The notes below the pieces were generated by a model that did not search any database, was not told the origin of the DNA, and was given only the letters and a program-made list of their open reading frames with translations. A DNA stretch of 32,517 nt from Betaproteobacteria bacterium (lineage in GTDB: Bacteria > Pseudomonadota > Gammaproteobacteria > Burkholderiales > CAIKXV01), in NCBI GenBank assembly GCA_947457885.1, contig CANGXU010000024.1, positions 1-32,517 on the forward strand, read 5' to 3'. Positions 1 through 13,510 of this stretch are shown here, piece after piece (the first letter of the stretch is position 1; each line of letters opens with the position of its first letter). The translations under genes were made by a program, and so were the position numbers.

Positions 1-902
1 AGGGTCGCGGTGACACCGGTACGGCCCGACACCTGGTTGACCGCAGTGACGACCGAGCCGAGGTTGCCGCCGGACGGGATCGTCGCGTTGATCGTGGTCG
101 CAGTGCCGCCGCCGTTCAGGCTGAACGAGACGTTGCCCACGTTGGCGACAGCCAGGGTCGCGGAAGTCGATGCACGCGCGCTGACGCCGGTCGCGCCGGA
201 CTGCGCATTGACCGCTGCGGCGATCGTCGACGCCTGGTCGTCGGCTGCGACTGTGACGTTCGCCGAGCCGTTCGAGCCCGACACGGTCACGGTCTGGGCC
301 GCGACACCGTTGCCCGCCGGCGCCGCGTTGGCACCCGCGGAAGCGCCACCGAGGCCGGTCGCGCCGGTCCCCTGACCTGCCACGGAGTTATTGGCCAGAT
401 CCTTGGCGGCCGCGCCCTGGATCGACACGCCGATCGTCTGGTTGGCATCGGCGCCGACCTGAAACTGCTGGCCCTGATAGGTCCCGTCGAGGATCTTCAG
501 ACCGTTGAAGGTGGTCGCGTTGGCGATCCGCGTGACCTCGGTCACCAGCTGGTTCACCTCCGAGTTCAGGGACTGGCGGTCGCTGGCGGAGTTCGTCGCG
601 TTCGCCGACTGGATCGCCAGTTCACGGATACGCTGCAGGATTTCGCCGGACTGCGCCAGCGCGCCCTCGGCCGTCTGCGACAGCGAGATGCCGTCGTTCG
701 CGTTGCGGCGGGCCTGGTCGAGGCCGCGGATCTGCGAGGTCATGCGATCGGAGATCGCGAGACCGGCGGCATCGTCCTTCGCCGAGTTGATGCGCAGGCC
801 CGAGGACAGGCGCTGCAGCGCGGTCGCCAGATTGCTCTGCGACGTCGTGAGGTTGCGCTGTGCGTTCAGCGAAGCGATGTTGGTGTTGATTACCTGGGAC
901 AT
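1..902 (-). CDS. fliC: Flagellin (FliC), C-terminal part outside the window
   Basis: This is the main subunit of the flagellar filament, exported unfolded through the flagellar type III system. About 300 residues are visible and the frame runs off the window edge. The start [15 protein letters not shown] and the stretch [20 protein letters not shown] are the classic D0/D1 flagellin N-terminus. The ELAIQSAN helix follows, and [13 protein letters not shown] closes D1 near residue 145. After about residue 165 comes an Ala/Gly/Ser/Thr-rich variable region with two repeats resembling the Flagellin_IN family (ending near [15 protein letters not shown] and [15 protein letters not shown]). The start is set by the canonical N-terminus and an AGGAG ribosome site 7 nt upstream (plus-strand CTCCT, 909-913). 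Two sigma-28-like promoters precede it. The Ser/Thr-rich surface domain is the likely acceptor for the glycosylation genes next door (inference). Confidence 0.96.
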
Positions 903-934
903 GAAAGTCTCCTGAAGTGTTCGTGGTCGTGTCA

Positions 935-959
935 GTCAAACGGATCGTTAATGTTTGAC
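935..959 (-). promoter_or_regulatory. Stem-loop in the flagellin mRNA leader
   Basis: GTCAAAC (935-941) and GTTTGAC (953-959) are perfect 7-bp inverted repeats around an 11-nt loop. They lie about 22 nt upstream of the fliC ribosome site, within the leader made from either sigma-28-like promoter. It could protect the 5' end of a highly expressed mRNA or bind a translational regulator. The repeat is visible; the role is inference. Confidence 0.4.
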
Positions 960-1008
960 ATCGCTCATCCCTCGCCACTTAAGGCCTTGCGAGCCGCTGT
1001 CCTTGATG

Positions 1009-1035
1009 TTAACGACCAGACCTCGAAATTCTTTA
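1009..1035 (-). promoter_or_regulatory. Sigma-28 (FliA) promoter, proximal, for fliC
   Basis: On the minus strand TAAAGAAT is followed by exactly 11 nt and then GTCGTTAA. Against the enteric FliA consensus TAAAGTTT-N11-GCCGATAA it matches 6 of 8 bases in each half with the ideal spacing. Transcription would start near 1000 and give a leader of about 100 nt before fliC. Confidence 0.65.
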
Positions 1036-1094
1036 GCGAATCAGTCGCTTGAGGTGGGCCGAGGACAGGACGGAGCAGTTCTCGGTCGTTGACG

Positions 1095-1121
1095 GTAACG
1101 GCACAGGACGGCGAAACTTGA
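1095..1121 (-). promoter_or_regulatory. Sigma-28 (FliA) promoter, distal, for fliC
   Basis: On the minus strand TCAAGTTT is followed by 11 nt and GCCGTTAC. This is 7 of 8 and 6 of 8 matches to the FliA -35 and -10 consensus with exact spacing. It lies 86 bp upstream of the proximal element and would give a leader of about 185 nt. The pair would make fliC a doubly initiated class-3 flagellar gene. Confidence 0.6.
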
Positions 1122-1165
1122 GCGAACGCCGCGCGATTGGACGGCTGGACATCCTGCAAGGGCCT

Positions 1166-1813
1166 TCAGCGCACGTCGGCGCGGATCGACTCAGGCTCCT
1201 CGCTGCACAGGCGTTCCAGCAGGCTCGCCTGGCTGCCGGTGGCCGGCTCCAGGAATTCGAGCTCGATACCGACGCCTGCGAACGCGTCGGACTCGTACAG
1301 GTCGCGCCCCCCCGGCGCATTCAGGTATCTGTCGGCACCGAGCCGGCGTGCGATGGCCAGGATACGTTGCTGCCCGCGCAGGCTTGGATCGATTTCGAGG
1401 CTCGAGGAGCGGACTATCGGGCAGGCAATCCCGAGACAGTCGAGCACTGCCTTCAGGTTGCGTTCGAGATAGTCGACGAGGGTCGCCCCCCCTTCGAGCA
1501 GCGGCAGCCTTGCGCGCCGTTCCGGCTCCGCCCGATCGAACGCAGGAAAGCGCCGCAGGTCGGCAGCGAGCTGCTCCATCGCGAAGGCTTCGAGACGCAT
1601 GTCGCGGATGGCCGTGTCCTGCGCCGCATGCGCGAGCCGGAGGGTCAGCCACTGCAGTTGCCCGCCGGCCCCCGTCAGACGGTTCCGGTGCACCCAGCCG
1701 CGACGCGGGAACTGCACGCAGTCGTACAACACGAACAGATCGGCGCGCGAGAACAGCCGGAAGTACCCGGCGTACGGGTAGAAGTACGGCTGCATGATCG
1801 CAACGGTGGTCAT
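1166..1813 (-). CDS. WbqC family protein
   Basis: A 215-residue protein beginning MTTVAIMQPYFYPYAGYFRL and continuing with LFVLYDCVQFPRRGW and HRNRL. This is the diagnostic N-terminal signature of the WbqC-like family. These proteins occur in O-antigen, capsule and flagellin-modification clusters, but their reaction is not securely known. The ATG at 1813 is preferred over an in-frame start at 1927 because the family N-terminus begins here and an AGGG-containing ribosome site precedes it. It lies upstream of fliC on the same strand and diverges from OGT1, 156 bp away. A role in processing or transferring an amino-sugar derivative for flagellin is inference from position. Confidence 0.85.
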   Translation of the reverse strand: MTTVAIMQPYFYPYAGYFRLFSRADLFVLYDCVQFPRRGWVHRNRLTGAGGQLQWLTLRLAHAAQDTAIRDMRLEAFAMEQLAADLRRFPAFDRAEPERRARLPLLEGGATLVDYLERNLKAVLDCLGIACPIVRSSSLEIDPSLRGQQRILAIARRLGADRYLNAPGGRDLYESDAFAGVGIELEFLEPATGSQASLLERLCSEEPESIRADVR

Positions 1814-1861
1814 TGCCCTGCCCTCTGGAAGCCGCAAAACCGCTCTCGGGGTGCGATGCGC

Positions 1862-1889
1862 TGCAGACGCCGGCTTCGCAACGTCTGCA
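1862..1889. promoter_or_regulatory. Perfect 8-bp dyad, possible operator between wbqC-like and OGT1
   Basis: TGCAGACG (1862-1869) and CGTCTGCA (1882-1889) are exact inverted repeats with half-site centres 20 bp apart, about two helical turns. The dyad covers the -35 region of the proposed OGT1 promoter and sits between divergent genes, as expected for a dimeric regulator. The binding protein is unknown. Confidence 0.35.
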
Positions 1890-1903
1890 CGATGCTCGAT
1901 AAT
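1875..1903 (+). promoter_or_regulatory. Sigma-70-type promoter for OGT1
   Basis: TTCGCA (1875-1880, 4 of 6 to TTGACA), a 17-nt spacer, then GATAAT (1898-1903, 5 of 6 to TATAAT). This would start transcription about 60 nt before the OGT1 start codon. An 8-bp inverted repeat overlaps the -35 element. Confidence 0.4.
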
Positions 1904-1969
1904 GCCCGTTCGCGCGGCGGGTTTCACTCCGGAACCGGCGCAGCCCAGGAAAGCGTCTCCCGCCCCTGC

Positions 1970-3991
1970 ATGAGCGATCCGCGTTCACCCGGCGATGCCG
2001 ATCGAAGCCTGCTCGACCGTGCGATACAGCTGCACGACGAGGGCCGTTTCCGGGATGCGATCACGCTCTACCGGCAGTTGTACGAGGCCGATCCGCACGA
2101 CTTCGACGCCGTGCACCTGATGGGTGTCGCCGCGCTGAACCTCGGCGAGGCCGCGCTCGCGCGGCGCCTGATCGAAGCAGCCCTCGCGCTGCGCCCCGGA
2201 TCTGCCGAAGCACACAACAACCTGGGCAGCGTACGCATGGCCGAGGGCGACCTCGAAGGTGCCCTGCAGTCGTACCTCGCGGCCGTGCACCATCGTCCAT
2301 CCTATCCCGAGGCCTTCGGAAACCTCGGCAACGTGCTGCTGTCGCTGGAGCGCGAGGATGAAGCACGCACCTGCTACGCGGAAGCCGAGCGGCTGTCTCC
2401 CGGGTGCTTCCAGGCCGCGAGCGGACTCGGACGGCTCCACTATCGCACGCACGACCTGTCCGCCGCCCAGGACACCTTTACACAGGGGCTGGCCGCGAAC
2501 CCTGACAACGCGGAACTGCTGCTCAACCTGTCGCTGGTGGTGACAGACCGCGGCCTGTCCGATGCTGCGTTGCCGCTGCTCGAGCGCGCGGTACGCACCG
2601 GTGCCAGCGGGCAGGCGGTAGCAGAACTGCAGCGCATTGCCCTCTCCCGCATGCAGCCCGATGCGCTCGAACGCGACCGCCTCTATCACGGTGGGCTGGT
2701 CGACGACGCCGAGGCTATGGCCCGGGCAGACCTCGCGCGCGCGAACACGGTAGATCATCACAATTTCCTGCTGAAGTGCTACCTGGCGAGCCCCCGGCAT
2801 TCGGCGCGCGACTATTTTGCCGAAAGCCGCGCGTGGGCCGCGGCCCATGCCTCGGAGGACCGGCTGCCCGACCCCGCCTCGTTTCCGAACGACCGCGACC
2901 CAGGCCGGCGCCTGCGCATCGGGCTGGTCGGCGACTACATCGACAGCATGATCGGGCGGCAGACCCTGTATCCGTTCTTCCGACAGTACGACCGGCGGAA
3001 GATCGAGCTGTACTGCTACAACTTCGGCGGTGGCGGGTCGGCGCTGCGCCAACTGCTCGACCAGTACCGGGACGTGCACGGTATCGGCGACGCCGCCTTC
3101 TTCGACCAGGTCCGGGCCGACCGGATCGACATCCTGCTCGACATCAACGGACGGCTGCGCACGCCCAACTTCTTCGGTGCAATGCTGCGACAGCCCGCGC
3201 CGATACAGGTCAACTGGTTCAACCTGACCGCGACCGTCGGGGCGAAGGCCTACAACTACCTGATTGCCGACGACTACAGCGTGCCACCCGAGGATGCCGG
3301 CCTGTACGTCGAGAAGATCTTCAACATGCCCAACGGCACCATCTCGGCCTGGGACATGGGCGATCCACCGGCCACCACGGCGCCGCCGGTCGAGCGCAAC
3401 GGCTATCCGACGTTTTCCTGCTTCGGGGACTTCTTCAAGGTCAATGCCGAAGTGATGCACGCCTGGGCGCGCCTGCTGCATCGGGTGAGGCATGCGAAGC
3501 TGTACCTCAAGAGCGCGAACCTGCGCATGCCCGCTGAACGCGAACGGGTCGCCGCGGCGTTCCGCGCGCTTGGCATCGGCGGCGACCGCCTGATCCTCGA
3601 AGGGCCCTCCCCTTACGACGCCATGAAACGGCTTTATGCGCAGGTCGATGTCGCGATCGATACCTTCCCCTACAGCAGCGGCTCCACCTCCATAAACGCC
3701 CTCTGGCAGGGCGTCCCGGTCGTCGCGATCGGCGGCGACGAATGGCGCAGCCGGAACACCGCGTCGATCCTGGTTGGTGCAGGCATTCCGGCGTACATCG
3801 CCCGCGACGTCGACGACTACATTGCCCGCGCGGAAGCGTTGGCCGGCGACGTCGACCACCTGCGCCGCCAGCGCGCGACGCTTGCAAGCTACCTGGCGAC
3901 GACGCCGCAATGGGACACCGCCGCCTTCGCAGTCAACTTCGAAGCCCGCCTGCGCGCGATCTGGCGCGACTGGCTGGCAGCCGCGCGGTGA
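1970..3991 (+). CDS. TPR-repeat SPINDLY/OGT-like glycosyltransferase (OGT1)
   Basis: A 673-residue cytoplasmic protein. Six TPR repeats fill residues 11-214 (34-residue spacing, each closing on a Pro- or Gly-containing turn), followed by a linker and a GT41-like catalytic region from about residue 315. Family marks include DINGRLRTPNFF, RQPAPIQVNW, a phenylalanine/lysine segment CFGDFFKVN equivalent to the OGT segment with the nucleotide-binding Lys, and DTFPYSSGSTSINALWQGVPVV. The N-lobe motif, normally DFxxHxxG-like, reads GDYIDSMIGR here and lacks the His. The frame stays open upstream to 1049, but that part is antisense to wbqC. I chose ATG 1970 because TPR1 follows directly; the ribosome site is weak. 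Neighbouring fliC suggests flagellin as acceptor, comparable in logic to FlmG or GmaR (inference). Confidence 0.82.
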   Translation: MSDPRSPGDADRSLLDRAIQLHDEGRFRDAITLYRQLYEADPHDFDAVHLMGVAALNLGEAALARRLIEAALALRPGSAEAHNNLGSVRMAEGDLEGALQSYLAAVHHRPSYPEAFGNLGNVLLSLEREDEARTCYAEAERLSPGCFQAASGLGRLHYRTHDLSAAQDTFTQGLAANPDNAELLLNLSLVVTDRGLSDAALPLLERAVRTGASGQAVAELQRIALSRMQPDALERDRLYHGGLVDDAEAMARADLARANTVDHHNFLLKCYLASPRHSARDYFAESRAWAAAHASEDRLPDPASFPNDRDPGRRLRIGLVGDYIDSMIGRQTLYPFFRQYDRRKIELYCYNFGGGGSALRQLLDQYRDVHGIGDAAFFDQVRADRIDILLDINGRLRTPNFFGAMLRQPAPIQVNWFNLTATVGAKAYNYLIADDYSVPPEDAGLYVEKIFNMPNGTISAWDMGDPPATTAPPVERNGYPTFSCFGDFFKVNAEVMHAWARLLHRVRHAKLYLKSANLRMPAERERVAAAFRALGIGGDRLILEGPSPYDAMKRLYAQVDVAIDTFPYSSGSTSINALWQGVPVVAIGGDEWRSRNTASILVGAGIPAYIARDVDDYIARAEALAGDVDHLRRQRATLASYLATTPQWDTAAFAVNFEARLRAIWRDWLAAAR

Positions 3992-4009
3992 TCACCGAGG
4001 CGTCCGGCG

Positions 4010-4882
4010 TCAGTCGGTCAGACCGTTCGCGCAGTCGACCTGAGCGATCGACGGAAACCCGGGTAATGGCGCCCCGCGGATGACGGTCCGCTGGTAGGCG
4101 CACGGATAGCCGCGCTCGACAAAGGTGGCTTCGGCGGTGTTCTCGTAACGCATGCTGGCGGCGATGCGCAGCCCGGCGCAATCCTTCACAGCGGTGCGGT
4201 GCACGGTGAAGCCGGTGAACACCAGCAGGTCGCCGCGCGATACGGTCGCGGTGATGAAGTCTTCATCGTCGTAGCAGGACGGATCAACCTCGCAGGTGTG
4301 CTCGGTGATGCACGAGGGCCAGACGCCGCGCCGGTGGCTGCCCGGGATCAGCTGCAGCGGGTACGTGTGCGGCGTCACGTCGAACAGCGAAAACCACATG
4401 GTGACCGCATCTAGCGAGCCCTGGACCACCGGCCAGTCCTGGTGCGTGGCGACGCCGTGATAGCCGCCGGGGATGCGCAGCGTGTCGCCCATCACGTGCA
4501 GCACCGGCGAGGTGGGCAGCGAAGCCGCCTGCAGCCCGAGCGCCGAGCCGATCGACAGCACGGTATCCGACACGACCAATTGCTGCAGCGAAGCGAGTCG
4601 CGCGCTGTGCCGGGTCGTTGCGAGGTATGCCTTCAAGTCGGCTTGCAGCAGTTGCTCCATGTTCTGCAGCAGCGAGGCACGCCCGCTCCACGCCGCGGCG
4701 GGCAGGCCCAGCCGCTCGAGCTGCCGTGTGTAGGCGCAGTGCATGTCGCGCGCGATGCGGTCGAGGCGATCCACCGGCAGCACACCCGGAATCACGGCCA
4801 GCCCGCTGGTGCGATAGGAGGCAACCCAGTCGGAACCGGCGTCGGCTGCGCATGGGCTTTCGGCTTGGAGAGCGGGTGTCAT
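4010..4882 (-). CDS. PhyH-type Fe(II)/2-oxoglutarate dioxygenase, copy 1
   Basis: A 290-residue member of the phytanoyl-CoA dioxygenase (PhyH) superfamily, which hydroxylates small molecules using iron and 2-oxoglutarate. The iron triad is visible: H147 and D149 in ATHQDW and H228 in FTVHRT, with R239 (LRIAA) placed to bind 2-oxoglutarate. LIPGSHRRG is also typical. The ATG at 4882 has a GAGGA ribosome site 7 nt upstream. Another in-frame start at 5029 would intrude on the preceding methyltransferase gene. It is the last gene of the eight-gene operon, 10 bp after the methyltransferase, and converges on OGT1 with an 18-bp gap. The substrate is unknown; a sugar or acyl substituent of the flagellin glycan is likely from context. 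Confidence 0.85.
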   Translation of the reverse strand: MTPALQAESPCAADAGSDWVASYRTSGLAVIPGVLPVDRLDRIARDMHCAYTRQLERLGLPAAAWSGRASLLQNMEQLLQADLKAYLATTRHSARLASLQQLVVSDTVLSIGSALGLQAASLPTSPVLHVMGDTLRIPGGYHGVATHQDWPVVQGSLDAVTMWFSLFDVTPHTYPLQLIPGSHRRGVWPSCITEHTCEVDPSCYDDEDFITATVSRGDLLVFTGFTVHRTAVKDCAGLRIAASMRYENTAEATFVERGYPCAYQRTVIRGAPLPGFPSIAQVDCANGLTD

Positions 4883-4892
4883 CGTCGAATCC

Positions 4893-5687
4893 TCAGGACA
4901 GGTTGCCCCTGCCGACCGGGCCGACCGGTTCGCCCAGGCCGCCGGAGCCCGGGCTGCATAGCAGGAAGATGCTCGCGCAGAGGTCCGGATGGACCATGCC
5001 GAGCTGGTAGCAGCCCTCCAGATAGGCACGATCGATGATCCCCGCCTCGAGCGCGCGGTCCATCTGGAAGTTCGCCAGCGGCTTGAACAGCACGCCGGCC
5101 CGGTGCGTCACGTCGAGCCCGGCGAGCCGCACCTCGTGTTCCAGCGTATCGAACGCATAAGTGCGCCGGTGACCGTGTTCGTACTCACCGGCGGTCACTG
5201 CGGTGTTGTGGGTGATCAGTCCCATCTTGACGGCGATCTGGCGCGACGGCGCGTTGGCATTGGGCACCACCAGGAACAGCCGCCCCCCCGGGGCGAGCCA
5301 GCGGCCGATACGCTCGAGCAGGGACACTGGCTCGTCGACATGCTCGAGCGTGTGCATCAGGAATACCGCGTCGAACCGGACGTCGGCGGGCGGGTTCCAG
5401 TCCTCGAAGCGGGAATGCACGAAACGCACATGGGCGGGCACGGCCCGGCGAGCCGCCTCGACCAGGTTCCCCGCCCCCTCCAGCACGGTGAGGTCGTCGA
5501 AGGCCCCCGCCAGCGTACGCGTGAACTCGCCGCGGTAGCAGCCCATCTCCAGCGCCCGCGCGCCGGCATGGCGCGGCAGGAACGGCTGGAACGCGCGCCA
5601 CATGTATTCCCGGTGGATATAGTCGAAGGCATACGCGTACTTGCGCGCACCGGTGTCCTGGTGTTCGAGCCGGAGGTCGCGTTTCAT
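4893..5687 (-). CDS. Class I SAM-dependent methyltransferase (MT1)
   Basis: A 264-residue Rossmann-fold methyltransferase. Motif I is ALEMGCYRGEFT near residues 45-56, followed by the acidic post-I segment VLEGAGNLVEAARR and DAVFLMHTLEHVDEP (motif IV region), then LAPGGRLFLVVPNANAPSR. This layout is that of the Methyltransf_11/23 group, often found in glycan or O-antigen clusters. The ATG at 5687 follows an AGGGA ribosome site. It lies 4 bp after PhyH copy 2 and 10 bp before PhyH copy 1, so it is translated with both. The likely job is O- or N-methylation of a glycan position; the substrate cannot be read from the sequence. Confidence 0.87.
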   Translation of the reverse strand: MKRDLRLEHQDTGARKYAYAFDYIHREYMWRAFQPFLPRHAGARALEMGCYRGEFTRTLAGAFDDLTVLEGAGNLVEAARRAVPAHVRFVHSRFEDWNPPADVRFDAVFLMHTLEHVDEPVSLLERIGRWLAPGGRLFLVVPNANAPSRQIAVKMGLITHNTAVTAGEYEHGHRRTYAFDTLEHEVRLAGLDVTHRAGVLFKPLANFQMDRALEAGIIDRAYLEGCYQLGMVHPDLCASIFLLCSPGSGGLGEPVGPVGRGNLS

Positions 5688-5691
5688 CGTC

Positions 5692-6525
5692 TTATCCCTG
5701 CCCTGGGCGATACATCCGGCGCTGCGGCGGCTGGTACCACTCCTCGAGTGTCGCGGGGATGCGCGAGTAGTACCCGAGCACCTGGCGCTGCAGTTCGGAC
5801 AGGGTGTCCATCCGTTCGTAGCCGAGCGCGCGCGGGTGGTCGAACTGCGGCTTCACCAGCGGACGGCTGAACATCGGCGTGACCGAGCGGCGCGCGTCGG
5901 CCGTGTTGTTGGCGCCCGCGGCGTGCCAGAGGTTGGAATCGAAAACGAGCAGGCTGCCCGCACGGCCGGTCGCGGCCTCGGCGCGTTCGGCGAACGCCTC
6001 GTCCGACGGCCGGACCGGGCAATCGCGATGGCTTCCGGTCATCATCATCGTCGCGCCGTTACGCACGGTGAAGTCGTCGAGCATCAGCAGCGTATTGAGC
6101 AGCAGCGGCAGCTCGCGCGAATAGGTGCGCACATCGCGGTGGATGGCGCTCGCGTAGGACGCGCTAGTACGAAGGATGTTGCCGCCGAACGCGTTCAGGA
6201 TGAACGGCCCGCCGAAGTGGGCCTGCAGGTGCGGCTCGAGCGGTCCCAGCCGGTCGATGAATTCGAGGAACGATTCGCCCTGGCCGACGAGGTGGTGCAG
6301 CGTGCCTTCCGTGTCGAGCGCAATGCCGTTGGCGATCTGCAGGCGGCGGCATGTGGCGTAGGCCCGCTCGAGGTCGGCACGCATACGGTGCACGAGGTCG
6401 TCGTCGACGAAGCGGTCGATGACCAGCCACCCGCGCGTCGCCATCGCCGCGCAGAAGCGGTCGACGCCGAGCCCTGCGGGCAGGCAGTGCGGCGCAGCGG
6501 CCATCGGTTCGGTCAGGTCTGGCAT
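5692..6525 (-). CDS. PhyH-type Fe(II)/2-oxoglutarate dioxygenase, copy 2
   Basis: A 277-residue PhyH-family oxygenase, clearly divergent from copy 1. H129 and D131 (AIHRDVR), H201 (NLWHAAG) and an Arg at 212-213 (ARRSVTP) supply the iron and 2-oxoglutarate ligands. MMMTGSHRDCP matches the family's PGSH turn. The ATG at 6525 follows GAGGA at good spacing; an upstream in-frame start at 6624 overlaps the preceding gene. It sits 10 bp after MT2 and 4 bp before MT1. Keeping an intact triad in both copies argues for two separate hydroxylation steps rather than one enzyme and one relic. Confidence 0.85.
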   Translation of the reverse strand: MPDLTEPMAAAPHCLPAGLGVDRFCAAMATRGWLVIDRFVDDDLVHRMRADLERAYATCRRLQIANGIALDTEGTLHHLVGQGESFLEFIDRLGPLEPHLQAHFGGPFILNAFGGNILRTSASYASAIHRDVRTYSRELPLLLNTLLMLDDFTVRNGATMMMTGSHRDCPVRPSDEAFAERAEAATGRAGSLLVFDSNLWHAAGANNTADARRSVTPMFSRPLVKPQFDHPRALGYERMDTLSELQRQVLGYYSRIPATLEEWYQPPQRRMYRPGQG

Positions 6526-6535
6526 TCCCGGTTCC

Positions 6536-7309
6536 TCACTTGATGGTGACGATCGCCTTGGACGGATACAGCGCCGCCTTCTCGATCGTGTAATCGATGT
6601 CCCGGAACACTTCCTTGAAGGCAATCGCCTCGCCGGGCGCGCCCGCCCAGGTCAGTTCATCGAAAACCAGCACGCTGCCCGGCATCAGCGACGACCTCAT
6701 CGCCTTGAGCGCCTCGACCGTCGGCAGGTAGGTGCCGATGTCGAAGAACGCCATCGCGACCAGCGTTTCAGGATGGTCGACGAAATACTTCGGGACGGTC
6801 TGGGTAGCGTCGCCCTCCACCAGCCGGTGGTTGCCGCGCTGGTGGCCGAAGGCGTTCGCGCCCTCGTGCGCCTCGAGCAGCGTTGCGAGGTAATCGCGGT
6901 ATCCCGGCGGCGTCGCATAGGTGCCGTCGCTCATCACGTCGCCGCGGATGTCCTTGTCGGTGAACGTGCGATACCCGGAGAAGGTGTCGAAGCCGACGAC
7001 CATGCGCTGCTTGTTGAAGGGTTCGTGGATCGCGCGCAGGTTCTCCAGCAGGACCAGGTTCTGGCCCCACCAGACGCCCAGTTCGATCAGCACCCCGGGC
7101 AGGTGGCGGATGCGCTGGTAGATGTCGTTCATGAACAGGAACTTCACCAGCACCGAGCTGCGGGTGTACATCCCGAGGTTGAACATCAGGTGCTCGGGCG
7201 GCAGCGGCGACTCCCGGAACATCCGTTCGAGTTGCTGGCGCTGGCCGAGCTGCTGCTCGTCCGCCGAGGTGCCTTCGCTGCTGGTGCGCGTGCTTCCGTG
7301 GAGCGTCAT
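6536..7309 (-). CDS. TylF/MycF-like SAM-dependent methyltransferase (MT2)
   Basis: A 257-residue protein with GVLIELGVWWGQNLVLL (SAM-binding motif I), VVGFDTFSGY (post-I acidic loop), MAFFDIGTYLPTVEALK and SLMPGSVLVFDELTW. This pattern resembles the macrocin O-methyltransferase (TylF/MycF) group, which methylates sugar hydroxyls and uses a divalent metal. The first 25 or so residues are Ser/Gln/Thr-rich and probably flexible. The ATG at 7309 follows a GAAGG ribosome site; the longer open frame upstream is a shadow of the propeller gene. It lies 5 bp after the propeller gene and 10 bp before PhyH copy 2. Sugar O-methylation is a reasonable guess; the exact substrate is unknown. Confidence 0.78.
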   Translation of the reverse strand: MTLHGSTRTSSEGTSADEQQLGQRQQLERMFRESPLPPEHLMFNLGMYTRSSVLVKFLFMNDIYQRIRHLPGVLIELGVWWGQNLVLLENLRAIHEPFNKQRMVVGFDTFSGYRTFTDKDIRGDVMSDGTYATPPGYRDYLATLLEAHEGANAFGHQRGNHRLVEGDATQTVPKYFVDHPETLVAMAFFDIGTYLPTVEALKAMRSSLMPGSVLVFDELTWAGAPGEAIAFKEVFRDIDYTIEKAALYPSKAIVTIK

Positions 7310-7314
7310 CTGGT

Positions 7315-8400
7315 TCAGCCTTCCGCTGTCGGCCCGGTGGCGGCACCTGGCCGTCCGGGCAGCCGGCCTTCCAGGATCGCGACGCCGATGCCGCTCTGCC
7401 CGAAGCCGTTGCCGTTGTAGAAAAGGTAGGTGCGCATGCCGACGCGCACCGTCGACGGGTAGCAGGTCATGGTCGAGTCCCAGCCGTCGGCCGAGGGCGC
7501 GATGCCCGACTGCGCATCGCTGCGCACGAAGCGTTCGCCGTCGTCGGACCATGCGTAGCCGATCCGGTAGGCGCCGCTGCCATCCCGGTAGTCGAGGCTG
7601 TGCCGATGGCAGTACCAGAGGTGGTAGCGCCCGCCCTCGCGCAGCACGGTCGGATGCGAGAACGCCTCCAGCGGATGGGCCTGCTCGACGCAGGTGACCG
7701 CCTTGCGCTGCCAGTGCACGCCGTCGTCGGAGCGCGCGTGCCGGATCACGTAGACCGGCTCGTAGCGGCCGTCGACTTCCACCCAGCGTTCGCCGGAGAT
7801 GTACCACGCCTGCCAGCGCGCGCTGCGGGCTGCCTGTGCGTCGGCATCCTGCCCCGACGGCTCGCATTCGATCCAGGGGGTGACCGCCAGGTACGGCTCT
7901 TCCGGCGTACGGTCGAGCACCGGACCTTCGTAGGCGCGCCGGAACGTAAGCCCATCATCGTCGCTGACCGCGAGCCCGGTCGCATTGTGGTACGGCACGG
8001 TCAGCCGCCGGTTCCAGCCACTGTAGTACATCCACACCCGGCCTTCCCGCTGATGCACCCAGGCCGGCATGACACCCTCATCGTCGAAGGTGCCTGGTGC
8101 CCCGAGCCCGAGCACCGGCGAGCGGTGGCAGCCGAGCAGTCGCGTCGGATCGTCGCGGTCGACATCGATGAAGGTCGGGAAGCTGCGACCGTCGGCACCG
8201 CGGCCGGCGTAGTAGACGCGCAGGCGATCGGCCATCACGAGCACGGCGGGTACCTGGGCATGGGTGCCGGCCCACTCGGGATGGGCACGCGGGTCGAATA
8301 CCTGCCCGAGCTTGCGCCAGTGCCAGCCGGTGGCCACAGCCCCCGCGGCCGGATGGCTGCCCGGTGCGCACATGATGGGAGAAGGCATCACGGTATCCAT
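7315..8400 (-). CDS. Five-bladed beta-propeller glycosidase-like protein (GH43/GH32/GH130 fold)
   Basis: A 361-residue protein with repeated blade-like units: LRVYYAGRG, VWMYYSGWN, WQAWYISGER, YHLWYCHR and TYLFYNGNGFG, several followed by ASDDDGxxF-like turns (AVSDDDGLTF, ARSDDGVHW, AWSDDGERF). This periodicity is that of the five-bladed propeller shared by families GH43, GH32, GH62, GH68 and GH130. I see no signal peptide, so it should stay in the cytoplasm with the other enzymes, which is unusual for a secreted-type glycosidase fold. The start at 8400 is 11 bp after the acyltransferase stop; ATG 8388 is an alternative, and neither has a good ribosome site. It may cleave or isomerise a sugar intermediate, act as a phosphorylase, or be a non-catalytic sugar-binding protein. 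Confidence 0.72.
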   Translation of the reverse strand: MDTVMPSPIMCAPGSHPAAGAVATGWHWRKLGQVFDPRAHPEWAGTHAQVPAVLVMADRLRVYYAGRGADGRSFPTFIDVDRDDPTRLLGCHRSPVLGLGAPGTFDDEGVMPAWVHQREGRVWMYYSGWNRRLTVPYHNATGLAVSDDDGLTFRRAYEGPVLDRTPEEPYLAVTPWIECEPSGQDADAQAARSARWQAWYISGERWVEVDGRYEPVYVIRHARSDDGVHWQRKAVTCVEQAHPLEAFSHPTVLREGGRYHLWYCHRHSLDYRDGSGAYRIGYAWSDDGERFVRSDAQSGIAPSADGWDSTMTCYPSTVRVGMRTYLFYNGNGFGQSGIGVAILEGRLPGRPGAATGPTAEG

Positions 8401-8411
8401 GGTTGTCACGC

Positions 8412-9083
8412 TCAGATGCCGCGCAGCCGGTGGCTGGGTACGCGCGAGGCTTCGGTCTTCGGGCCGATGTACACCTCGGCGTACTTCGTATCGGCCAGGA
8501 TCACCACGCCGGCGCCGATCACGTTGCGTGCGCCGATGCGGACGTTGTCGCGGATGGCCGCGTTCACGCCGATGAAGCTCGACTCGCCGATATCGACCGA
8601 TCCCGACACGACCACATGCGAGGCGAGGAAGCAGTGGTCGCCGACCGTCGAGTGGTGTCCGATGTGGTTGCCCGCCCACAGCCACACGTTACGTCCGAGG
8701 CGCGAGAACGGCTGCAGGTTGTTCAGTTCCATCACGAAGGTATTGCTGTCGGGCACCACCTCGCCGGCGACTCGCGCGTGCGAGCTGATGTAGTTCGCGC
8801 AGCGGTAGCCATCGGCCTGTACCCTGGTCACCGTGCCGGCGCGCGCCTGGTTCAACCGACCGTAGGCGATCGCCACGAACATCGCATGGCTCGCGGCCGG
8901 CCAGCGGACGATCGCCTGCGCATACGGCAGCACCGGCAGGCCGAGCAGGCTGTCGGCAACGAGATACTCCGGGTCGACCGTGAAGCCGACCACCTCGTAG
9001 TCCGAATCGTGCGCGAAGCAGTGCCATGCCACTTCCGCGATCTGGCCGGCACCGAACACCACGAGTGGTTGGCGCGCGGCCAT
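8412..9083 (-). CDS. NeuD/PglD-like sugar O/N-acyltransferase with left-handed beta-helix
   Basis: A 223-residue protein. The N-terminus LVVFGAGQIAEVAW is the Rossmann-like PglD_N domain that binds the nucleotide sugar. From about residue 95 hexapeptide repeats form a left-handed beta-helix (ISSHARVAGEV, NHIGHHSTVGDHCFL, ASHVVVSGSVDIGESSFIGVNAAI, IGARNVIGAGVVI), with the His-rich HIGHHS segment where the catalytic base lies in PglD. Such enzymes transfer acetyl or related acyl groups to an amino or hydroxyl group of UDP- or dTDP-linked deoxysugars. It starts 2 bp after the aminotransferase stop, and this pairing fits an amination-then-acylation sequence on one sugar. The exact donor and acceptor are not visible. 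Confidence 0.85.
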   Translation of the reverse strand: MAARQPLVVFGAGQIAEVAWHCFAHDSDYEVVGFTVDPEYLVADSLLGLPVLPYAQAIVRWPAASHAMFVAIAYGRLNQARAGTVTRVQADGYRCANYISSHARVAGEVVPDSNTFVMELNNLQPFSRLGRNVWLWAGNHIGHHSTVGDHCFLASHVVVSGSVDIGESSFIGVNAAIRDNVRIGARNVIGAGVVILADTKYAEVYIGPKTEASRVPSHRLRGI

Positions 9084-9085
9084 GG

Positions 9086-10276
9086 CTAGCCCACCGCGCG
9101 CAGGTGCGCGCCGCGCGAACTGCTGCTGCGCGTCGCCTTGGCGACGCCGGCACGGCCACGCCCGCCCAGCGCGAGGATGGCCTGCAGCGCAGCGGTCACC
9201 CGCTCGATGTCGGCCAGGCTCATCTGGAGATGGAACGGCAACCCGAGCAGGTGCTGGTCAAGGTGCTTGACGACCACATGGTCGTCGGCCTGGGTGAGCG
9301 CCAGGAACGCAGGATGGGCATAGATGCCCGGGCAGTACCAGCGGCGCGAGCCGATGCCGCGCGATGCGAGGAACTCCGCCACCGTTTCAGCGCGCAACCG
9401 GTCCGGCAAGCGCACCACGCCAAGCGAGTAGACACCGCCGGCTGCACGCTCCTGAAGAACGATTTCGGGGCAGGTGTCCGTCAGCGCCTGCCGGTAGGCC
9501 GTCATCAGCCGGCGCCGCGCAGCGCTGATCTCGGGCCAGCGATCGAGGGCAGCCAGCCCGACGGCAGCCGCATACTCGCTCATCTTGCCATTGACCCCGA
9601 TATCCGAGATCAGGCCACCCGCGGACATGTAGCCGAAATTGGACAGGCGCCTTACCCGCGCGACGATCTCGGCATCGCGCGCGACCACGAAGCCGCCCTC
9701 CCCGGCACCCAGCGCCTTGGTCGCATGCATGCTGTAGGCGACCACGGTATGGCGGCCGATGCACTGGTTGCCAAAGGCTCCTGCGGCATCGATCACGACA
9801 GGGACGCCGGTGTCCTCGGTCAGCTGGTCCCAGGCGTCTGCGTCGAGTGCACCGCCGAACGCGGCCACCGGCATGATCGCCCGGATGCCGCGCACCCGGT
9901 TCATCGCAGCGCGCGCGATCTCCGGTGTCAGCACCCAGCGCGAAGGGTCGACGTCGGCGAGCACCGGCTCGAACCCCGCCTGCAGGATCCCCGATACCGT
10001 GCCGGGGAACGTCAGCGAAGGCACCAGCACCTTCACCCGCGGGCGATCGACGCTGGCCATCAACGCGAGCTGCAGGCCGACGGTGCAGTTGGCAACGGTG
10101 GTCAGGGCCACCGGCTGCTCGCTCAGTGCGGCACAGTCGGCCGACAGCCTTTTCTCGAGTTCAAGGCACAGCGGCCCGAAATTGGCGTACTGCTGCGCCT
10201 CGTCGATTCGCCGCAGGTAGGGCAGCAGGTCTTCCACCGACGGCATGTCGGGCTTGAGCACCGGAATCGGATTCAT
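9086..10276 (-). CDS. DegT/DnrJ/EryC1/StrS-family sugar aminotransferase
   Basis: A 396-residue PLP-dependent enzyme. K187 in SMHATKALGAGEGG is the Schiff-base lysine and D163 in VVIDAAGAFGN pairs with the pyridine nitrogen; SLTFPGTVSGIL and VAAFGG are other family landmarks. These enzymes convert keto groups of nucleotide-linked sugars to amines, supplying viosamine-, bacillosamine- or 3-amino-deoxysugar-type building blocks. The ATG at 10276 overlaps the OGT2 stop by 4 nt and has an AGGAG ribosome site 8 nt upstream. The C-terminal tail after about residue 372 is Arg/Ser/Gly-rich and looks disordered. No matching 4,6-dehydratase is in the window, so the keto-sugar would come from genes elsewhere. 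Confidence 0.9.
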   Translation of the reverse strand: MNPIPVLKPDMPSVEDLLPYLRRIDEAQQYANFGPLCLELEKRLSADCAALSEQPVALTTVANCTVGLQLALMASVDRPRVKVLVPSLTFPGTVSGILQAGFEPVLADVDPSRWVLTPEIARAAMNRVRGIRAIMPVAAFGGALDADAWDQLTEDTGVPVVIDAAGAFGNQCIGRHTVVAYSMHATKALGAGEGGFVVARDAEIVARVRRLSNFGYMSAGGLISDIGVNGKMSEYAAAVGLAALDRWPEISAARRRLMTAYRQALTDTCPEIVLQERAAGGVYSLGVVRLPDRLRAETVAEFLASRGIGSRRWYCPGIYAHPAFLALTQADDHVVVKHLDQHLLGLPFHLQMSLADIERVTAALQAILALGGRGRAGVAKATRSSSSRGAHLRAVG

Positions 10277-12771
10277 ACTGCTGTCTCCTGTCGGGCCACG
10301 CTTTCGACCAGGAATCCGGCCATTTCCACTGCGCAGTCCGTCTGTCTGAACAGAAGATCGGACCGGGCCCGCAAATCTTGAGCAAGCTGCTGCCGCAGCG
10401 ACGGTTCCGCGGCCAACGTCAGCGCGCGCGACACGAAGTCGTCCACGCCTGTGGCGACCAGCCAGTCGATGTCCATCATGCTCAGCAACGCCTGGGTACC
10501 GCGGCCCGACAGGCGATCGGACGGCAGGGTCAGCACCGGTATCGCCTGCCCGAGCGCGTTGATGGCGGTCGTGCCCATTCCGAAAGGCCAGCAGTCGAGG
10601 ACCGCATCGGCTGCTTGCAGCCAGGACTGGAAGGTCCGCGCATCCGCCCAGGGCTCGAACCGTACCCGGCCTGCGGCGGCACCCATGGTCTCGCGCTGGC
10701 GCGCCTCGGTCAGCGCACGCCAGTGTGCCTGCCGCTCGTCCTCGAACAGCACCACGCAAGCCTTCGGGTCGCGCTCGATCAGGGCAGCCAGCGCCGCGTC
10801 GAAGTCGGGGTGCAGCTTGTGCAGCTTCACCGGGCAGAGGTACACATGTTCGCCGGCGAGTCCGAGCGCGGCCCGACTCGCCAGGTCGCCTACGACGGCC
10901 GGCGGAGTGAGCACGCTGTTGTAGGCGTCGAGCAGCACCAGCTCCTCGCTGTAGAAGGCCTGCGCGGCTGGCGTCTCCAGCCAGCGGCTGGACAGCAGGT
11001 AATCGATGTTCGGGCTGCCGCTGGTCTCGGGATGGCCGCCGCTGAGGCACTGCACCCGAGCGAGGCGAGACAGCGAGAGCGGATAGGTGATCCGATCCAT
11101 GCCGATGTCGGTGTAGAACAGGACATCCAGTTCCAGCGAGGCGATCGCCGCGCGTATCGAGGACAGGTTGCCGCGCGGAGAGATCCAGCCGGCGCAGTTC
11201 GAACGGATGCTCGTCGTCACCTCGTCGTCCTGGTGCCCGAGCGAGATGCCGACGATCTCCAGCCTCGGATCGGCAGCCAGACCGGCGATCAGCCGCATGA
11301 ACGACATGCCGACTGAATGCCGGAAGAAATACTGCGACACGAATCCGACCCGCACGCGAGCGCGGGTACGGGGTGCCCTGACATGCGGCGCTTCGCAGCC
11401 GAGTTCGGGTGCCATCTTCAGGTATAGGGCGGCCAGGTCGGACAGCGTCTGGCGATTGTTCCACCCCCGATAGGCGAAGTAGAACGGGGGATCGAGGTAC
11501 TTCATCACCCTGGCCTCGGTGGCGCTTTGCGGCGCGGTGGCCAGCGACTGCATGTCGGCGCGGATGCGCTGGCGGTCGGCCTCGATCGAGACCTTCGTGC
11601 CCATGATGGCGGACAACAGCGTAGCGGCCCGCAGGCGCAGCGCGGCGTCGTCCGCCAGCGCCGCCGCGTGCAGGAAAGTGCGCCGCGCCGCAGACGTGTC
11701 ACCGAGCTGTACGAAGGTCATCGCCAGGTTTGCATGCGCCTCCGCGAAGCCGGGGCGCAGCGCGATCGCGTTCCTGAAGGACGCTGCCGCGTCCTGCGCC
11801 AGACCGAGTTCCTGCGCTGCGAGGCCGGCGCCATTGAGCGCCTCGACGAACGACGGTGAGAGCTCCAGGGCACGTCGGAAGTCTTCGGCGGCCTCCGGGA
11901 AACGCTGCTCGCGCAAGTCCACGTTGCCGAGGTTGTTCAATGCTTCGGCGTGCGCGGGGTCGGCATCGAGCGCGCGCAGGAAGCATGCGCGCGCATCGTC
12001 GAGCAGATGCTCGTCCAGGAACAGGATGCCCAGGTTGTTGTAGGCGCCTGCGTGGGCAGGCGCCAGTTCGAACACGCGCTCGTAGGCGGCCACCGCATCG
12101 ACGCCGCGACCGAGCGCAGCGAGCGCACCGGCCCGGCAGAAGTGGGCATCGGCATCGTCGGGCCGCTGTTCGCAGGCTCGCTCGAAGCAGTCGAGCGCCT
12201 CCGCGCGCCGGCCGACGGCTTCGAGGATGACCCCGAGGTTTCGCCAGGCTTCGGGGAACGCAGGGCGCTGGGCAACCGCGCGGCGCAGCGCGGCGATCGC
12301 GTCGTCGTTGCACATCAGCGCACCGAGTTCGTTGCCCAGATTGCACCATGCCTCGGGGAACACCGGCTGCAGCTTCACCGCCCGGCGATAGGCCTTCTCC
12401 GCGTCCGCATGGCGCTCGAGCTTCTGCTGCGCGAGGCCGAGCTTGAACCAGCCGAGCGCGCTGCCGCGGGCACGCGCGACACAACGCTCGAATGCCTCGG
12501 TCGCCAGTGCATCGGCGCCGGTCTCTGCATGCAGGTCGCCGATCGCCATCCACACGTCGGCCTGCGCAGGATCCGCCGCGATCGCCTGCTGCAGGCAGCA
12601 CATGGATTGTTCCCGGTCACCGCTGGCCTTCTCGAGCAGGCCGAGCAGGTACAGCACCCGCGCGCTGTCGGGCTGCGTCTCGAGGATCGAACGGTAGGCG
12701 CGGCGCGCTGCGTCGAACTGGCCGGAATCGTGCAGCAGGGCCGCTTCGGCCAGGGTTGGCCCGGCGCTCAT
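10273..12771 (-). CDS. Large TPR-repeat SPINDLY/OGT-like glycosyltransferase (OGT2)
   Basis: An 832-residue cytoplasmic protein. About eleven 34-residue TPR units span residues 5-378 (for example AEALNNLGNVDLREQRFPEA and VEALNGAGLAAQELGLAQDA). A catalytic GT41-like region then begins near residue 465. It keeps the N-lobe motif GFVSQYFFRHSVG with its His, LDVLFYTDIGMD, SGGHPETSGSPNIDYLLSS, the C-lobe lysine segment CPVKLHKLHPDFD and LDCWPFGMGTTAINALGQAIPVL. This makes it the more canonical of the two OGTs. ATG 12771 has a GGAG ribosome site and follows a sigma-54-type promoter. It heads the eight-gene operon and overlaps the aminotransferase start by 4 nt. Flagellin is the likely acceptor; the TPR superhelix would bind it (inference). 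Confidence 0.88.
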   Translation of the reverse strand: MSAGPTLAEAALLHDSGQFDAARRAYRSILETQPDSARVLYLLGLLEKASGDREQSMCCLQQAIAADPAQADVWMAIGDLHAETGADALATEAFERCVARARGSALGWFKLGLAQQKLERHADAEKAYRRAVKLQPVFPEAWCNLGNELGALMCNDDAIAALRRAVAQRPAFPEAWRNLGVILEAVGRRAEALDCFERACEQRPDDADAHFCRAGALAALGRGVDAVAAYERVFELAPAHAGAYNNLGILFLDEHLLDDARACFLRALDADPAHAEALNNLGNVDLREQRFPEAAEDFRRALELSPSFVEALNGAGLAAQELGLAQDAAASFRNAIALRPGFAEAHANLAMTFVQLGDTSAARRTFLHAAALADDAALRLRAATLLSAIMGTKVSIEADRQRIRADMQSLATAPQSATEARVMKYLDPPFYFAYRGWNNRQTLSDLAALYLKMAPELGCEAPHVRAPRTRARVRVGFVSQYFFRHSVGMSFMRLIAGLAADPRLEIVGISLGHQDDEVTTSIRSNCAGWISPRGNLSSIRAAIASLELDVLFYTDIGMDRITYPLSLSRLARVQCLSGGHPETSGSPNIDYLLSSRWLETPAAQAFYSEELVLLDAYNSVLTPPAVVGDLASRAALGLAGEHVYLCPVKLHKLHPDFDAALAALIERDPKACVVLFEDERQAHWRALTEARQRETMGAAAGRVRFEPWADARTFQSWLQAADAVLDCWPFGMGTTAINALGQAIPVLTLPSDRLSGRGTQALLSMMDIDWLVATGVDDFVSRALTLAAEPSLRQQLAQDLRARSDLLFRQTDCAVEMAGFLVESVARQETAV

Positions 12772-12979: not shown

Positions 12980-13510
12980 CTAGTCGTCCGCCAGGGCCTC
13001 GCCGGGGAACAGGGCTTCGCTGAACCCGAACTGGCGCAGGTCGCGGATGCGCATCGGATAGAGGATGCCCATCAGGTGGTCGCATTCGTGCTGCACCACC
13101 CGCGCATGGAAGCCCGACACCGTACGATCGACCGGCTCGCCCGATGGGGTCAGGCCGCGGTAGCGCAGGTGCTTCCAGCGCGGTACCAAGCCGCGCATGC
13201 CGGGCACCGACAGACAGCCCTCCCACCCGTCCTCGATTTCCTCGCCCGCAGGCTCCAGGACCGGATTGAGCAGTTCGGTGTATGGAACCTTGTCCGCATC
13301 GGGATAGCGCGGATTGGACGCGACGCCGAAGATCACCACCTGCAGCGAGACGCCGATCTGTGGCGCGGCAAGCCCTGCGCCATCGAGGGCCGCCATCGTA
13401 TCGCGCATGTCCTGCAGCAGCGCCGCGAGTTCGGGCGTACCGCAGGCCTCGACCGGCCGCGCGACCTGCAGCAGCACGGGATCTCCCATCCGCAGCACGT
13501 CACGAACCAT
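12980..13510 (-). CDS. def: Peptide deformylase
   Basis: A 176-residue metalloenzyme that removes the formyl group from the initiator Met of new proteins. All three signature motifs are present: [10 protein letters not shown] (44-53), EGCLSVPG with metal ligand C99, and QHECDHLMG with ligands H141 and H145 and catalytic E142. ATG 13510 is chosen because [14 protein letters not shown] is the normal family N-terminus; the frame is open to 13651, but that stretch is antisense-like and overlaps the phosphorylase. Its first 11 nt overlap the phosphorylase gene end, indicating translational coupling. No fmt gene is adjacent, so this may be a second, non-fmt-linked deformylase. Confidence 0.95.

Follow-up and report, generated by a model that had tools for sequence, protein, structure and literature searches.

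A candidate flagellin-linked O-glycosylation island with two TPR-GT41 transferases in Burkholderiales

Introduction

Enzymes of glycosyltransferase family 41 (GT41) are best known as the eukaryotic nucleocytoplasmic O-GlcNAc and O-fucose transferases. The closest described bacterial systems act on flagellin. In Enterobacteriaceae, flagellin islands encode GT41 enzymes with a SPINDLY domain together with DegT, NeuD and methyltransferase proteins; each island has between one and three transferases, and rmlB often lies elsewhere (PMC4875605). The viosamine island of Pseudomonas syringae pv. tabaci encodes VioA, VioB and VioM, which make a modified 4-amino sugar for flagellin that caps rhamnose there, and a transferase, VioT, of 1173 residues (PMC3927599). 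In Caulobacter, the tetratricopeptide-repeat (TPR) domain of FlmG binds flagellins, and the sugar is pseudaminic acid, made with NeuB (PMC7591256). A Burkholderia survival screen also cites a flagellin glycosylation system (PMC5987112), a review forms part of the surrounding literature (PMC3958885), and dioxygenase, TPR and WbqC are absent from the available text of a paper on a Shewanella cluster (PMC3765264). Here we describe a ten-gene island beside the flagellin gene fliC in a betaproteobacterium of the Burkholderiales. The window, that is, the stretch of DNA analysed, is an entire contig of 32,517 nucleotides (CANGXU010000024.1, our G000:C24) from a draft genome of 4.03 Mb in 289 contigs (89.87% complete).

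An original prediction, made by a model from the sequence of the window, had proposed a flagellin O-glycosylation island at this place, with Caulobacter FlmG and Listeria GmaR, the latter a bifunctional transferase and anti-repressor of MogR, as parallels. On the sequence evidence assembled below, we read the ten genes as a flagellin-linked island that would assemble a nucleotide sugar, an N-acylated, O-methylated 4-amino-4,6-dideoxyhexose, and attach it to Ser/Thr residues of the neighbouring flagellin in the cytoplasm, with a probability that we put at about 0.6.

Results

A conserved ten-gene island between def and fliC

The island, at 1166-12771, adjoins flagellin and consists of wbqC, two distinct TPR-GT41 genes of the OGT/SPINDLY type (OGT1 and OGT2) and seven sugar-tailoring genes (Table 1). 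From the left edge of the window, a partial flagellin gene (minus strand) is followed by wbqC (minus), OGT1 (plus) and a minus-strand operon in the order OGT2-degT-hexapeptide transferase-propeller-MT2-phyH2-MT1-phyH1; there is a 4-bp overlap between OGT2 and degT, and the remaining gaps are 2-11 bp, distances that depend on the starts chosen in this analysis. Genes were called from open reading frames (ORFs) and Pfam profile scans, and both bear out the predicted linkage of flagellin, wbqC and two different TPR-GT41 genes to a tightly spaced tailoring operon. The predicted gene families could likewise be named, except that the propeller protein has no Pfam match at E 1e-3, and OGT1 turned out to be oriented opposite to the operon. 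Only 300 residues of the flagellin are present because the window, being the whole contig, ends inside the gene; full-length orthologues in eight congeners have 492-495 residues. GC content gives no indication of a foreign origin (0.678 versus 0.680).

Some stretch was read in all 11 genomes of the genus, and the island is found in eight of them; within the reach of the contigs, its place is between def and the fliC operon. G000, G006, G009 and G010 have it on an unbroken stretch from def to fliC; a G005 contig spans the inside of OGT2 to beyond fliC, and the order in G002, G003 and G008 was assembled from two or more contigs. OGT2 is present in 8/8 islands and OGT1 in 6/8, being missing from those of G003 and G010, which lie on separate branches. 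In G004, def and fliC are adjacent with a gap of 277 bp, a natural empty site, and that genome has no propeller match genome-wide and no OGT2 orthologue. No propeller match was found in G001 and G007, where the def-fliC site is unseen.

A tree of FliD, FliS and FliT from eight genomes, rooted on the long branch of G001, contains a support-100 node that joins G004 with G006, G003, G010 and G009, with the carriers G008 and G005 outside; the other nodes have supports of 99 (G006 with G003), 77, 55 and 54. Since G004 is nested among carriers, loss in G004 is the simpler reading, and by parsimony OGT1 was lost twice on this tree. Five comparisons with the window show the island genes tested to be under purifying selection, the ratios of nonsynonymous to synonymous substitution rates (dN/dS) being 0.04-0.43; among the three closer pairs, OGT2 has 0.21-0.23 and degT and MT2 have 0.04-0.09. 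Given an order kept across the genus and these ratios, the gene cluster is not a product of chance. The locus has the marks of a flagellin glycosylation island, in that transferase and sugar-enzyme genes lie at the flagellin locus and their presence varies among close relatives.

A third OGT-like gene is inserted in G009, where it separates def from OGT2 (L051:10894-13047). A public bin, CAMDXD010000052.1 (L041), titled Bordetella parapertussis, carries a degT 95% identical to that of the window; the entry looks mislabelled and is no evidence for that species.

Two GT41 lineages

OGT1 and OGT2 both exceed the Pfam Glyco_transf_41 cut-off and have N-terminal TPRs. Engineered TPR proteins aside, the closest matches to OGT1 are 5djs (E 1.7e-71) and SPINDLY (E 2.2e-68); for the catalytic half of OGT2 the match is more distant (XcOGT, E 1.3e-25). 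A Lys taken to be the donor-binding residue of SPINDLY and OGT is aligned by HMMER with an OGT1 Lys conserved in 7/7 OGT1-like proteins (5djs has Met there), and OGT2 has a Lys in a matching motif, conserved in 8/8 OGT2-like proteins, the equivalence being judged by motif. The His of the motif YVSxDFxxH occurs in 8/8 OGT2-like proteins and is not at that place in 7/7 OGT1-like ones. Because their nearest relatives and conserved residues differ, the alignments place OGT1 and OGT2 in different lineages and not as recent duplicates. OGT2 is likely the core transferase of the island. Elsewhere in this genome, another OGT-like gene (L103:2267-5710, G000:C185) lies directly downstream of a gene that by eye is porin-like.

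Tailoring enzymes and the predicted donor

Judged from the enzyme families, the predicted sugar is an N-acylated, O-methylated 4-amino-4,6-dideoxyhexose. The hexapeptide transferase passes the cut-off of a NeuD/VioB-type model, the MT2 family aligns with CalS11 over 216 residues (E 7.1e-56), and the best NCBIfam model for DegT is DesI, with a match far below cut-off. Both rmlA and rmlB are over cut-off in 10/11 genus genomes; the two G000 genes share a small contig (C237). NeuB has a match in 2/11 genus genomes and in 2/8 island carriers, and none in the other 6/8, among them G000 (itself 89.87% complete). This speaks against a pseudaminic acid donor; a nonulosonate is unlikely for those six carriers, and we do not file the island as FlmG-type.

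Two families are less readily placed. The propeller protein has a five-bladed, GH130/GH43-like fold. The WbqC AlphaFold model (mean predicted local distance difference test, pLDDT, 93.3) bears a weak resemblance to the fold of HIGH-type nucleotidylyltransferases and class I aminoacyl-tRNA synthetases; its VIA-align rows are mostly HIGH-type enzymes, at Z values that may mean only a common arrangement, and WbqC has no Foldseek match at E 0.001 and no sequence relatives in the PDB.

Flagellin and its promoter

A sigma-28-like site with one mismatch precedes fliC in 5/6 congeners scanned (G006, G009, G004, G003 and G005; not G010), and one with two mismatches to the consensus does so in the window. 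Control of the island by sigma-28 was considered and set aside, as the nearby sites precede fliC and none precedes OGT1 or OGT2. Nor does flagellin sequence track island presence: the flagellin of island-free G004 is 89.6% identical to that of G006, with 84% in the centre, and several carriers show 66-86% there (near-identical G000 left out). Downstream of fliC are genes read as flaG, fliD, fliS and fliT. A second, unlinked flagellin of 573 residues is encoded elsewhere (L101:8285-10006, G000:C7), with no sugar genes seen beside it and related copies in G006, G007 and G009.

Flagellin linkage outside the genus

The propeller profile was run against samples of 399 order genomes and 398 phylum genomes. 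Matches were obtained in 37/399 order genomes, the eight carriers and 29 others; of the latter, 22 have a Flagellin_N match, which also takes in FlgL, and seven have none. A flagellin match is at most 17 kb from the propeller gene in 10/29 (10/22 flagellin-bearing genomes), and 12 have flagellin elsewhere or on another contig; several of these stretches end at contig edges (e.g. L148, L159, L164 and L165). A GT41 catalytic domain occurs in 13/29 order stretches, always with degT and wbqC. The phylum sample yielded a propeller match in 24/398 genomes, 21 of them new, one of which has no flagellin match at all, and a GT41 domain is present in 2/21 of the stretches read. Tandem arrangements were also seen: the propeller gene is an adjacent pair in 10/29 order loci (L149-L156, L161 and L173), and a protein of about 150 residues lies between such a pair and MT1 in L154, L155 and L184.

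Related cassettes beside other genes

One relative, G642, belongs to the same phylum and another class (alphaproteobacterium-like by eye). Its locus (G642:C11:95824-111466; L182, L203, L204) shares the window order of eight genes, degT-hexapeptide transferase-propeller-MT2-phyH2-MT1-phyH1-wbqC, at identities of 41, 47, 56, 63, 57, 60, 36 and 51%, followed by an OGT at 29%; the OGT stands after wbqC, whereas OGT1 in the window lies between phyH1 and wbqC. Its flanking genes are a PseG gene that passes the cut-off, a PseI-like gene (first 58 residues scanned) and a gene for a 752-residue RTX-repeat protein, and the sole Flagellin_N match on the contig is weak and 49 kb away. Because the eight genes keep their order in another class beside a different, predicted secreted-protein gene, the glycosylation system can probably change its protein target.

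Other loci have other neighbours, at most candidate acceptors. G068 (L155:9388-13864) has the order OGT-degT-wbqC-two propellers-MT1; past a TPR gene, 2 kb from the OGT, stands a gene for a type IV pilin (PF00114), and the genome, 96% complete, has no flagellin match. In G192 an autotransporter-domain gene lies about 1 kb from the OGT; its flagellins are at the start of another contig and may still be linked to the cassette. In G077, the fullest relative, every tailoring family and three OGTs are encoded between genes taken to be ffh and rimM/trmD. The flagellins of this genome are 0.8 Mb distant; about 5 kb from the cassette is a protein that looks secreted and, by eye, Ser/Thr-rich, and that lacks a Pfam match. 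G316 has two GT41 genes at its locus, G425 encodes a protein lacking a Pfam match about 6 kb from MT1, and gene-by-gene reading of the stretches from G214, G224 and G388 showed no obvious acceptor gene near the cassette.

Table 1. Features of the island and its immediate surroundings in the window
Feature	Position	Strand	Evidence
fliC flagellin, first 300 residues, cut by contig edge	3..902	-	PF00669 E 2.9e-46
Sigma-28-like promoter site before fliC	1009..1035	-	TAAAGAAT-N11-GTCGTTAA, 2 mismatches
wbqC, 215 residues	1166..1813	-	PF08889 E 7.9e-37, 127.6 bits (cut-off 21.3)
OGT1, TPR + GT41 transferase, SPINDLY-like, accessory	1970..3991	+	PF13844 107.9 bits (cut-off 25)
phyH1, Fe(II)/2-oxoglutarate dioxygenase family	4010..4882	-	PF05721 E 3.8e-12
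MT1, class-I S-adenosylmethionine methyltransferase	4893..5687	-	PF13489 E 1.3e-19
phyH2, Fe(II)/2-oxoglutarate dioxygenase family	5692..6525	-	PF05721 E 2.3e-20
MT2, CalS11 homologue (TylF/CalS11-type)	6536..7309	-	3tos/4gf5 E 4.7e-51; profile E 7.1e-56
Five-bladed-propeller protein, GH130/GH43-like fold	7315..8400	-	
Hexapeptide N-acyltransferase, NeuD/PglB/VioB family	8412..9083	-	TIGR03570 168.3 bits (cut-off 160.8)
DegT/DnrJ sugar aminotransferase	9086..10276	-	PF01041 E 3.2e-60; PDB 3ju7, 2po3
OGT2, long TPR array + divergent GT41 domain	10273..12771	-	PF13844 43.2 bits (cut-off 25)
def-like gene, island flank	12980..13510	-	name assigned by eye

The right flank reads by eye as housekeeping (def, MTAP-like, phosphoribosyltransferase-like, ligA, zipA and smc), with a racemase-like gene (PF01177) also present; several of the ORFs scanned there are shadow frames, and smc, zipA and ligA were named by eye alone. 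Short TGTGCC-like direct repeats lie at window:12900-12930, between def and OGT2.

Discussion

In this genus the island most likely glycosylates flagellin, the candidate acceptor. We favour this reading because the genes are syntenic with fliC in eight carriers and leave an empty site in G004, and because of the dN/dS range; because of the GT41 scores, the conserved Lys, the homology of MT2 to CalS11, the NeuD/VioB-type match, the presence of rmlA and rmlB and the lack of a NeuB match in 6/8 carriers; and because no polysaccharide-export family is found in the island, ten of 22 flagellin- and propeller-bearing order genomes outside the genus show the linkage and FlmG sets a precedent (PMC7591256). 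We envision that RmlA and RmlB, encoded elsewhere in the genome, would supply dTDP-4-keto-6-deoxyglucose, that DegT would aminate C4, and that the NeuD-type transferase, perhaps with WbqC, would acylate the amine. MT2 and MT1 would then O-methylate the sugar, and the PhyH dioxygenases may hydroxylate the sugar or the acyl group. The TPR superhelix of OGT2 would hold flagellin while OGT2 transfers the sugar before export, and OGT1 could add a second sugar or serve other sites. The propeller protein, a predicted GH130-like hydrolase or phosphorylase, may edit the glycan or the donor, and its role is the least certain.

Several observations pull the other way. The matches of DegT to known models all fall far short of the cut-offs, so that sequence does not distinguish a dTDP from a UDP donor, and the island carrier G005 (84% complete) is the sole genus genome without rmlA and rmlB over cut-off. 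OGT1 is without the His that OGT2 retains, and the promoter scan found no sigma-28-like site before OGT1 or the OGT2 operon. Ser/Thr content does not differ between the flagellin of island-free G004 and those of carriers, and in G006 the flagellin centre is only slightly above the ends in Ser/Thr (0.234 versus 0.206). Dependence of flagellin linkage on an OGT is suggestive at best: linkage is found in 7/13 order loci with GT41 versus 3/16 without (Fisher p 0.064), and in 7/11 versus 3/11 among the 22 flagellin-bearing genomes (p 0.20). Beyond the order, a flagellin match on the contig of the propeller gene and no more than 20 kb from it occurs in 0/21 propeller-bearing genomes, a count limited by contig ends in fragmented assemblies, and the cassettes nearest in content (G077 and G642) lie away from flagellin.

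The alternative that best survives is a general surface-protein O-glycosylation system that merely lies next to fliC and has another main acceptor, such as the second flagellin, a pilin, a porin or an adhesin. The genome does have that second, unlinked flagellin, and related cassettes have as neighbours a type IV pilin gene (G068), an autotransporter-domain gene (G192) and an RTX-repeat gene (G642); the cassette has nevertheless stayed beside fliC in the eight genus carriers, those other neighbours may be coincidental, and we regard this alternative as unlikely. It is quite improbable that the genes modify a sugar of lipopolysaccharide, capsule or exopolysaccharide and not a protein. DegT, NeuD-type and WbqC proteins are common in O-antigen loci, and the stretches read contain no GT41 catalytic domain at 16/29 order loci and 19/21 beyond, so the relatives of the sugar genes mostly function with no OGT next to them; but Pfam scans found no polysaccharide exporter or polymerase family among the ten island proteins, on which ground a lipopolysaccharide or capsule locus was rejected, the island sits between housekeeping genes and the flagellar operon, and GT41 enzymes are established as acting on proteins. 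An island that is decaying or non-functional would fit the absence from G004 and the two losses of OGT1, but is highly improbable for a locus whose ten genes all have intact reading frames in the window, whose dN/dS ratios are 0.04-0.43 in the five comparisons and whose motifs are kept.

The original prediction is partly supported: the linkage to flagellin is strong in the eight carriers and is met again in 10/22 order genomes outside the genus, but the related cassettes of G077, G642 and G068 lie away from flagellin. The prediction had also named a common position away from flagellin and beside lipopolysaccharide or capsule loci as a finding that would count against it: cassettes away from flagellin do occur, but no lipopolysaccharide or capsule export genes were seen in the stretches read, no search having been aimed at them.

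The portable cassette with changing neighbours is the strongest new lead. In its full form, which we offer tentatively and hold to be rather doubtful, the sugar part (degT-hexapeptide transferase-propeller-MT2-phyH2-MT1-phyH1-wbqC with an OGT) would be a portable protein-O-glycosylation cassette that changes acceptor, from flagellin in this genus to an RTX-repeat surface protein in another class, with relatives beside a type IV pilin or an autotransporter; the TPR-OGTs would serve as interchangeable adaptors to the acceptor for a shared glycan, and WbqC would be a new ligase or nucleotidyltransferase of HIGH fold, acting on the 4-amino group. If this is true, a tailoring order kept across proteobacterial classes beside different surface-protein genes would show bacteria re-aiming one protein glycan, and the widespread WbqC and GH130-like propeller families would be placed in a context from which their functions could be learnt. 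With two diverged bacterial GT41 lineages, a tailoring operon, a candidate acceptor and an island-free congener, it also becomes directly testable how donor and acceptor are chosen and what each transferase does.

Among known systems, the enterobacterial islands resemble the present one in lying next to fliC, in occurring patchily and in encoding GT41, DegT, NeuD and methyltransferase proteins, and differ in site, theirs being fliC-fliA and that of the present island def-fliC (PMC4875605); the words 'TPR', 'dioxygenase', 'propeller' and wbqC appear nowhere in the main text of that paper. The viosamine island shares an aminotransferase, a VioB-type acyltransferase and a methyltransferase with ours, which, in a search of the ten island proteins, showed no homologue of vioS, vioR or acp (PMC3927599). 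MT2 belongs to a family homologous to CalS11, the TDP-rhamnose 3'-O-methyltransferase (PDB 3tos, 4gf5), but reads FDIGTY where CalS11 has FDLDLY, and so its metal or substrate binding may differ. The predicted parallel with FlmG holds for the domain layout, an N-terminal TPR and a C-terminal GT-B transferase (PMC7591256), and probably fails for the donor, NeuB being unmatched in 6/8 island genomes here. A pairing of two OGTs with a tailoring set, which the original prediction did not recognise as described, has precedents, since G077 has three and G316 two, and enterobacterial islands carry one to three (PMC4875605). Among the literature matches listed, the present gene set is undescribed, and flagellin and WbqC do co-occur in one of them. 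As GT41 flagellin islands have already been described in Enterobacteriaceae (PMC4875605), the kind of island is known; its gene set and its def-fliC site are new.

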